DNA of 64,000 nucleotides, taken from positions 1 to 64,000 of the forward strand of contig JADFDI010000006.1 of the NCBI GenBank assembly GCA_018262985.1, read 5' to 3'. Under the pieces are notes generated by a model. It had not been told where the DNA came from and searched no databases. It saw only the letters and a list, made by a program, of their open reading frames with translations. Shown piece after piece: positions 41,619 to 42,165 of this stretch; within the stretch, counting starts at the first letter, position 1; every line of letters begins with the position of its first letter. This DNA is from Spirochaetota bacterium. GTDB lineage: Bacteria > Spirochaetota > Spirochaetia > Treponematales > UBA12059. The position numbers and the translations under genes are program-made.

Positions 41619-41764
41619 TGACCGATCCTTTCCGGAGCCGGCTTGATCCCGGGTGGTAGCCCGAGGCGCCCGCGCGCGGTTTCGGATCGAAATCATCGCC
41701 GATCGGAGCCTCGTCCGCAAGCCGGCCGCGCGTCCTCAAAACCCCTCCGGGCCGATCACAAGAT

Positions 41765-41802
41765 AAGGAAAAACCCCGCTCTGGCGAGCGGGGTTTTCCT
41801 TT
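41765..41802 (-). terminator. Strong hairpin terminator distal to the tRNA-Leu-derived element
   Basis: AAGGAAAA and CCCCGCT pair with AGCGGGG and TTTTCCTT around CTGGCG. Symmetric, so it could work in both directions; on the minus strand it would end transcripts of the 220-nt element. Confidence 0.75.
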
Positions 41803-41808
41803 CTTGTT

Positions 41809-42028
41809 GCCCAGAGGGGGACTTGGCTTCCGCGGCTCGGCTTCGTGTCGAGCCGCTCCAGCCCGCCTCCGGCGCTCTCGGCGCATCCCTTCGGCCGCGC
41901 GCTTCCTGCGCGCGACCTCCGGGCCGCCTCGCTCGCTTGACCTCGCATCCTGCGAGGTCACCGGCATGTCGCGCTGCGAGTCTCGCGCGCCATGCCGGCG
42001 CGAGCTCGGTTCAAGTCCCCCTCTGGGC
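41809..42028. repeat. 220-nt multi-hairpin element closed by inverted tRNA-Leu 3' ends
   Basis: The ends GCCCAGAGGGGGACTTG (41809-41825) and its exact complement (42012-42028) equal the T-arm/acceptor 3' segment of the neighbouring tRNA-Leu; the right copy matches over 21 nt (42008-42028). Inside lie at least four hairpins: GCGGCTCG/CGAGCCGC, CGCGCGC/GCGCGCG, GACCTCGC/GCGAGGTC and GGCAT/ATGCC with an inner CGCG/CGCG. It is bracketed by two strong hairpin terminators, so it may be a separate structured RNA or a mobile, tRNA-targeted palindrome. No open reading frame of note. Confidence 0.8.
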
Positions 42029-42034
42029 TTGTCG

Positions 42035-42080
42035 CTAAAAGTAAAAGCCCCGTCCTGGCGGACGGAGCTTTTACTTTTAG
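42035..42080 (-). terminator. Terminator of tRNA-Leu
   Basis: CTAAAAGTAAAAGC pairs with GCTTTTACTTTTAG and, after one mismatch, CCGTC with GACGG around CTGGCG. It begins 1 nt after the tRNA 3' end. A very long, A/T-flanked hairpin, symmetric in sequence. Confidence 0.8.
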
Positions 42081-42081
42081 C

Positions 42082-42165
42082 TGCCCAGAGGGGGACTTGA
42101 ACCCCCATGCCGGTAAAGGCACTAGAACCTGAATCTAGCGTGTCTGCCAATTTCACCATCTGGGC
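42082..42165 (-). tRNA. tRNA-Leu (anticodon CAG)
   Basis: On the minus strand: acceptor GCCCAGA/TCTGGGC, D-arm with GAAATTGGCAGAC, anticodon stem CTAGA/TCTAG with loop TTCAGGT (anticodon CAG), a variable arm (TGCCTTTACCGGCA) and T-arm GGGGG-TTCAAGT-CCCCC. Discriminator A. No encoded CCA. Its 3' half is duplicated twice in the adjacent 220-nt element. Confidence 0.95.

Follow-up and report, generated by a model that had tools for sequence, protein, structure and literature searches.

The window, a 64,000-nucleotide (nt) stretch of spirochaete DNA analysed here, carries on its minus strand a tRNA-Leu(CAG) gene with a 220-nt structured unit 53 nt behind it. Read in the tRNA sense, the order is tRNA-Leu(CAG), a terminator (T1), an inverted 21-nt copy of the tRNA 3′ end (A′), a series of hairpins, an 18-nt sense copy of that end (A) and a further terminator (T2) (Table 1). 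The arms at 41809–41825 and 42012–42028 form a perfect 17-bp inverted repeat, and 42008–42028 forms a perfect 21-bp inverted repeat with 42083–42103 in the tRNA 3′ end. These tRNA-matching repeats, the hairpins and the two flanking terminators had been reported in a preliminary description of the locus, and all are present. What proved key had not been stressed there: the tRNA 3′ end and its terminator recur together as direct repeats (41765–41825 and 42039–42099; 61 nt, 77% identity), of which 18 nt are identical between 42082–42099 and 41808–41825. A′ begins at tRNA nt 72 and omits the complement of the discriminator, a rule that holds across the family described below. The multi-hairpin structure claimed earlier is borne out by folding, with z-scores of −10.8 and −9.5 on the two strands against dinucleotide shuffles.

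Table 1 Features of the array behind tRNA-Leu(CAG)
Feature	Position	Strand	Basis
tRNA-Leu(CAG), host of the array; no encoded CCA	42082..42165	-	ARAGORN; Rfam RF00005, 53.7 bits
A, direct repeat copy 1: 3′ end of the tRNA from the T-loop as far as nt 73 (discriminator)	42082..42099	-	sequence; direct repeat
T1, palindromic intrinsic terminator past the tRNA, 22-bp stem	42034..42081	-	inverted repeat; fold
A′, 5′ arm of the unit: tRNA 3′ end in inverted copy, 21 nt	42008..42028	-	inverted repeats
Interior of first tRNA-linked repeat (TLR; stem P2, hairpins a, b and c), ending at the fusion point	41887..42007	-	covariance model match 41880–42018; 94% identity to G001
Hairpin loop CAGGATG (GGA loop, CsrA-type motif)	41946..41952	-	sequence; family loop statistics
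Hairpin loop CAGGAAG (GGA loop)	41902..41908	-	sequence; family loop statistics
3′ half of second TLR, joined by deletion	41826..41886	-	covariance model match 41819–41925; comparison with G001; 84% to the Leu-CAG copy of G021
A, 3′ arm of the unit: tRNA 3′ end in sense copy, with discriminator	41808..41825	-	direct and inverted repeat
T2, palindromic terminator past the unit	41765..41807 (palindrome 41765–41802)	-	inverted repeat; fold
Probably the degenerate inverted arm of one more unit, now decayed (GGCCCGGAGGGGTTTT)	41738..41753	-	inferred from reading the sequence

The feature is real and not an assembly artefact, because a congener (G001) has the same locus and related units occur throughout the phylum. 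The interior in G001 is 61 nt shorter, and comparison with it places a deletion that joins …CCGAAGGG to ATGCGCC… within the hairpin-b loop of a second copy. What follows the junction comprises the 3′ strand of hairpin b, a GAGGCGGGCTGGAG linker, hairpin c and GGAAGC. The window's unit is thus two TLRs fused by deletion, and for that reason bigger than a standard unit. An Rfam 15 scan of the window returned tRNA only, and a permissive scan of eight unit-bearing loci returned tRNA and tmRNA, with otherwise only chance-level matches; RtT RNA (RF00391) had no match in the window, nor in the eight loci at E ≤ 1.

Related units are widespread. A DNA search found matches in 27 of 59 relatives behind tRNA genes of various kinds (Leu-CAG, Leu-GAG, Leu-TAA, Met, Thr and Glu), each followed by a common interior between arms that repeat the sequence of the local tRNA. 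Nine copies went into a covariance model of the interior (R1), which raised this to 39 of the 59. In the genome that contains the window it gave nine matches at E < 0.002, and a further unit there lies behind tRNA-Pro; the other tRNA-flanked copies that the preliminary description had proposed to look for thus exist in the same genome and in relatives. The comparison set holds one genome per species, several of them as fragmented assemblies, and the model's E-values rest on a short calibration. Across Spirochaetota, units occur in at least 60 of 393 genomes at E ≤ 1e-5, a lower bound, as few candidates were scored per genome. Searching GTDB genomes for the hairpin pattern likewise located the family in Spirochaetota metagenome-assembled genomes. 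One to five tandem copies stand at a locus, the five being behind a tRNA-Asn (L351). Searches of phage and plasmid records gave no match to the unit, and viral contigs yielded only an enterobacterial look-alike. This unannotated intergenic repeat of about 175 nt in Enterobacter, Leclercia and E. coli (L169–L247, L287–L293; median of three places per E. coli genome) has the hairpin GCGAGGCGCA(N)GGANGCGCCGAGAG in common with the spirochaete units and is not tRNA-linked. It was rejected as a family member on its low covariance-model scores and on having no tRNA directly before it.

The units lie directly 3′ of tRNA and tmRNA genes, nearly always on the same strand, and both of their arms match the local tRNA. 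A same-strand tRNA stands no more than 500 nt upstream of 109 of the 127 fetched copies, mostly at 41–74 nt, and 26 kinds of tRNA are represented; a single copy faces a tRNA on the opposite strand. The link holds for 34 of 36 copies that were not used for the model and belong for the most part to different orders and families within the phylum. One copy follows a tmRNA identified by Rfam (L112) and one a tmRNA-like 3′ end recognized by eye (L090), and the other exceptions examined are behind 3′ fragments of tRNA genes or at contig ends. The sense arm of about 18 nt agrees with its own upstream tRNA at 16.1 of 18 positions and with other tRNAs at 9.3; the corresponding values for the held-out set are 16.3 and 9.0. 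The discriminator, nt 73, is copied in 76 of 84 sense arms, and only 5 of 54 units have its complement just before A′. Single changes in the two arms, which we designate P1 when paired, number 28 in A and 83 in A′, A being more often tRNA-like, and the pair is kept in 7 of 9 double changes; this compensation test mildly favours A′:A pairing. At one locus of G015 (contig C12), two copies of the 3′ half of a CAT-anticodon tRNA plus a unit (L104, at 69.3 kb, and L160, at 80.0 kb) lie 10.7 kb apart, spaced as if flanking an integrated island.

Conservation and covariation mark the interior as a structure into which the tRNA-sense strand folds. From 5′ to 3′ in that sense, P1 (A′:A) encloses CC-GA-P2-GA-GG, hairpin a, hairpin b and a 4-bp stem (GGCT/AGCC, GCCC/GGGC or GCCT/AGGC) that in turn encloses a GGA internal loop and hairpin c (loop consensus CA(N)GGANG for b and CA(G/C)GANG for c); tandem G·A recurs in the fold. 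Double changes are seen at 33 of the 34 model pairs across 127 copies, and the covariation score is 0.589 against 0.156 for shuffled alignments and at most 0.07 for slid controls; a second set gave 0.657 against 0.164, and these alignments are fitted to the model and so biased towards structure, with margins that are large. The covariation that the preliminary description had called for is therefore there. Interior stems contain 37 G·T and 16 A·C combinations (p = 0.005), an excess which indicates that it is the tRNA-sense strand whose structure is constrained, whether as RNA or as single-stranded DNA.

The preliminary description knew of no class with this layout, and here it needs amending, because E. 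coli has one. Its TLRs, first reported in 1978 and including RttR of the tyrT operon, comprise 22 genes at ten loci with 1–5 per locus; 18–19 bp at the 3′ end of each equal the 3′ end of the upstream tRNA or rRNA, and most are without known function or origin, rrA, rrB and rrF being excepted for function (PMC8144298). We re-found E. coli TLRs with 18–19-nt direct repeats behind tyrT, tyrV, the argVYZQ operon, the lysT-lysQ operon and lysV; those of tyr and lysQ/lysV also carry an inverted T-arm, and the rrnB T1–T2 region repeats the 5S end AACTGCCAGGCATCAAAT. By layout, the spirochaete units are TLRs: both kinds stand directly behind tRNA or rRNA genes in 1–5 tandem copies, with 3′-end identity of 18–19 nt in E. 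coli, a GA-rich multi-hairpin interior and, in the tyr and lysQ/lysV units, the 5′ inverted T-arm, and the rrn-linked E. coli units, too, lie between two terminators. Against 50 kb of E. coli sequence, the spirochaete model placed the tyr and rrnB TLRs among its best matches, but at only 10–16 bits (best 15.9 bits, E = 0.09), a weak sequence homology by which common descent is at most suggested. Differences are also clear. Hairpin c of the spirochaete units is nested in the GGCT/AGCC stem, whereas the E. coli GCCC/GGGC appears to be a local hairpin; the spirochaete inverted arm is usually longer (up to 17–21 bp) and accompanied by its own terminator; and spirochaete units stand at nearly all tRNA kinds and tmRNA, with up to 18 per genome. 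They therefore seem to be a variant with its own fold. The rrnB T1–T2 TLR (L370, 1040–1075) has an inverted tRNA-type T-arm (GCGGATTTGAAC) although the RNA before it is 5S rRNA; it looks like a captured TLR of tRNA origin. The literature searched, which covers little of the older work, contains no report of TLRs in spirochaetes.

Comparison of occupied and unoccupied sites in three congeners defines what is gained or lost. At tRNA-Leu(GAG), G000 reads tRNA-A-S0, where S0 is the terminator, and G001 reads tRNA-A-S1-A′-X-A-S0, with X the interior and the same S0 terminator now past the unit. In G001, the A of tRNA-Leu(TAA) is followed by an encoded CCA and by terminator S0; at the same tRNA, G002 has A without CCA, a different terminator S1, A′ and X, and only then A-CCA-S0. 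From both sites it follows that the gained or lost unit is A, terminator, A′ and interior. After the change the tRNA bears another 3′ end and terminator, and the old ones stand behind the unit. With three species each case reads as gain or as loss alike, and loss by recombination between A copies would yield the same picture. The encoded CCA of tRNA-Leu(TAA) is present in one species and absent from its congeners (L325, L019 and L072, all of one genus), apparently because the inserted unit replaced the tRNA 3′ end. The nearest neighbour of an interior lies at the same tRNA in another genome for 31 of 110 copies (shuffled mean 6.4) and at another tRNA of the same genome for 11 of 110 (shuffled mean 2.8); these excesses indicate that vertical descent and spread are both present. 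Hairpin c has been swapped as a block between congeners.

Units are themselves hosts to other repeats. A second, smaller family of about 45–65 nt (…CAATCCATTCCTCTCCGAAAG…GCGAAGCGACGC) occurs in their hairpin loops and sense arms (L068 at 1150–1640, L154, L011, L110 and L105); it is also found between inverted and sense tRNA T-arms, and it is tandem in L154 behind tRNA-Gly. A RAYT-type transposase gene interrupts a unit behind tRNA-Gly(TCC), in the loop of hairpin b (L310, 1290–2000; G015, contig C8). Hairpin-b loops look like hot spots for insertion.

We consider it probable that the feature in the window is a TLR array in which a deletion has fused two units, the units having spread as cassettes and being transcribed by read-through. 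In the tRNA sense a unit consists of A, a terminator or short spacer, A′ and the multi-hairpin interior, and the following copy of A closes it. Such units may spread as cargo-less cassettes that insert via the tRNA 3′ end or T-arm, and then multiply through unequal exchange between A repeats. Read-through of the tRNA terminator would transcribe them, and the RNA may be trimmed at the tRNA-like A′:A helix, by analogy with the rrn-linked E. coli TLRs, which are trimmed at their 5S-like end; its GGA hairpin loops may bind CsrA. The DNA and RNA layers of this mechanism are not mutually exclusive. The earlier proposal of a tRNA-targeted, protein-less mobile palindrome was thus largely right, given the tRNA-linked copies and the whole-unit gain or loss at tRNA 3′ ends. 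Its suggestion of an integrase or recombinase site cluster fared less well, as no recombinase gene was seen adjacent and integron integrases show no association; its structured RNA may be transcribed behind the tRNA, for which E. coli offers a precedent.

Integron gene cassettes with their attC sites, and the attP of CTX phage, have a palindromic site that can fold as a single strand; insertion displaces the old site, and tandem arrays result. Units resembling such cassettes would give the mobile layer of the TLR explanation a specific mechanism, which we put forward tentatively: the folded A′-interior-A hairpin would be the single-stranded recombination site, like attC or the phage attP, with the 3′ end of the tRNA as an attI-like entry site at which a tyrosine recombinase inserts a circle of A, terminator, A′ and interior via A, so that the newest unit is nearest the tRNA. 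The foldable palindromic site, the displaced old A and terminator, which have the topology of cassette insertion, and the tandem arrays are all likenesses. It is the best explanation of why the inverted arm copies the local tRNA, since the folded stem must equal its target, and it accounts for a single folding strand and for the several (though not all) arrays in which proximal units are intact and distal ones are broken by other repeats. Other observations fit it poorly. In some arrays the weaker copy is the proximal one; A′ frequently spans the T-stem only; unit loops are conserved, whereas attC tips are variable; the arms are target-specific; and no gene-bearing cassettes were seen. Integron integrases above the cut-off occur in 15 of 39 carrier genomes and 8 of 20 non-carriers, so they do not track the units, and we reject an integron integrase as sole mover; no recombinase, transposase or reverse transcriptase was tied to the units. 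That they are REP/REPIN-type repeats moved by a Y1 (RAYT) transposase seems very improbable to us. The units are short, intergenic, protein-less palindromes as well, RAYT genes occur in 33 of 59 genomes and one lies inside a hairpin-b loop in G015, yet arms that copy the target are foreign to REPs, and the units' ends, orientation and position are tRNA-specific with no consistent RAYT partner. RAYT surroundings hold their own TCTGTCCC-type repeats and not the linker motif of the unit, and G006, G011 and G013 are rich carriers without RAYT; this lack of association, together with the different flanking repeats, led us to reject RAYT transposases as the mover. Only slightly less improbable is an origin without any mobile unit, in which template switching at the terminator hairpin simply duplicates the tRNA 3′ end in tandem and inverts it. 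Direct repeats of T1 and T2 are found at many loci, and in 22 of 84 copies the 10 nt past nt 73 are identical in tRNA and unit, which shows that in-place tandem duplication happens. As a complete account, however, it is disfavoured by the same interior standing behind different tRNA kinds with re-tailored arms, and by unit and tRNA terminators that are often unlike, the old one displaced intact.

On the RNA side, the units may instead be host genes for a functional small RNA, transcribed past T1 from the promoter of the tRNA, cut back at the tRNA-like ends and sequestering CsrA or another protein via GGA loops, with copies kept by selection; we regard this, too, as possible rather than likely. 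The covarying fold conserved on the sense strand speaks for it, as do GGA in the hairpin-b loop of 95 of 105 copies and in the hairpin-c loop of 75 of 105, and CsrA genes in most carrier genomes, that of the window included. In E. coli, rrA, rrB and rrF have a terminator on either side; they are transcribed by read-through from rrn operons, processed, and bind Hfq and CsrA in vitro, RrB binding CsrA via GGA loops; transcription and processing are shown for these rrn-linked TLRs only, and the remaining 19 are predicted non-binders of CsrA (PMC8144298). The two terminators, folding strand and GGA loops of the spirochaete units parallel RrB. CsrB/CsrC/RsmZ-type small RNAs likewise have CA(N)GGANG hairpin loops, whereas the spirochaete units have one or two GGA loops each, tRNA-derived ends and many loci, and their CsrA binding is putative. 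Selection for a host RNA sits less easily with units that are polymorphic, truncated and invaded by other repeats. The hairpin-c loop is CGA in 28 of 105 copies, where CsrA binding is not expected, and one carrier (G014; 94% complete, 8 copies) has no CsrA; both argue against CsrA binding as a universal role, and the presence of CsrA is not a strict requirement for units. In family f4, the four genomes with CsrA all carry units and the eight that lack it carry none; the loss of both may be a single phylogenetic event.

The broadest form of the preferred reading, in which TLRs are mobile cassettes, would make them a distinct class of cargo-less elements: folded as a single strand, each would restore a tRNA gene's 3′ end to serve as a recombination site, and each insertion would swap the host's 3′ end and terminator for its own. 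The tRNA genes of spirochaetes, and of E. coli, would then be integron-like entry points, an idea we offer as a conjecture that may well not hold. TLRs emerge here as a phylum-wide family of Spirochaetota, with a covariation-backed structure, arms drawn from the local tRNA and comparisons of sites with and without units. A curiosity of E. coli since 1978, TLRs become a widespread and testable spirochaete family, and a repeat element can exchange the 3′ ends and terminators of tRNA genes.
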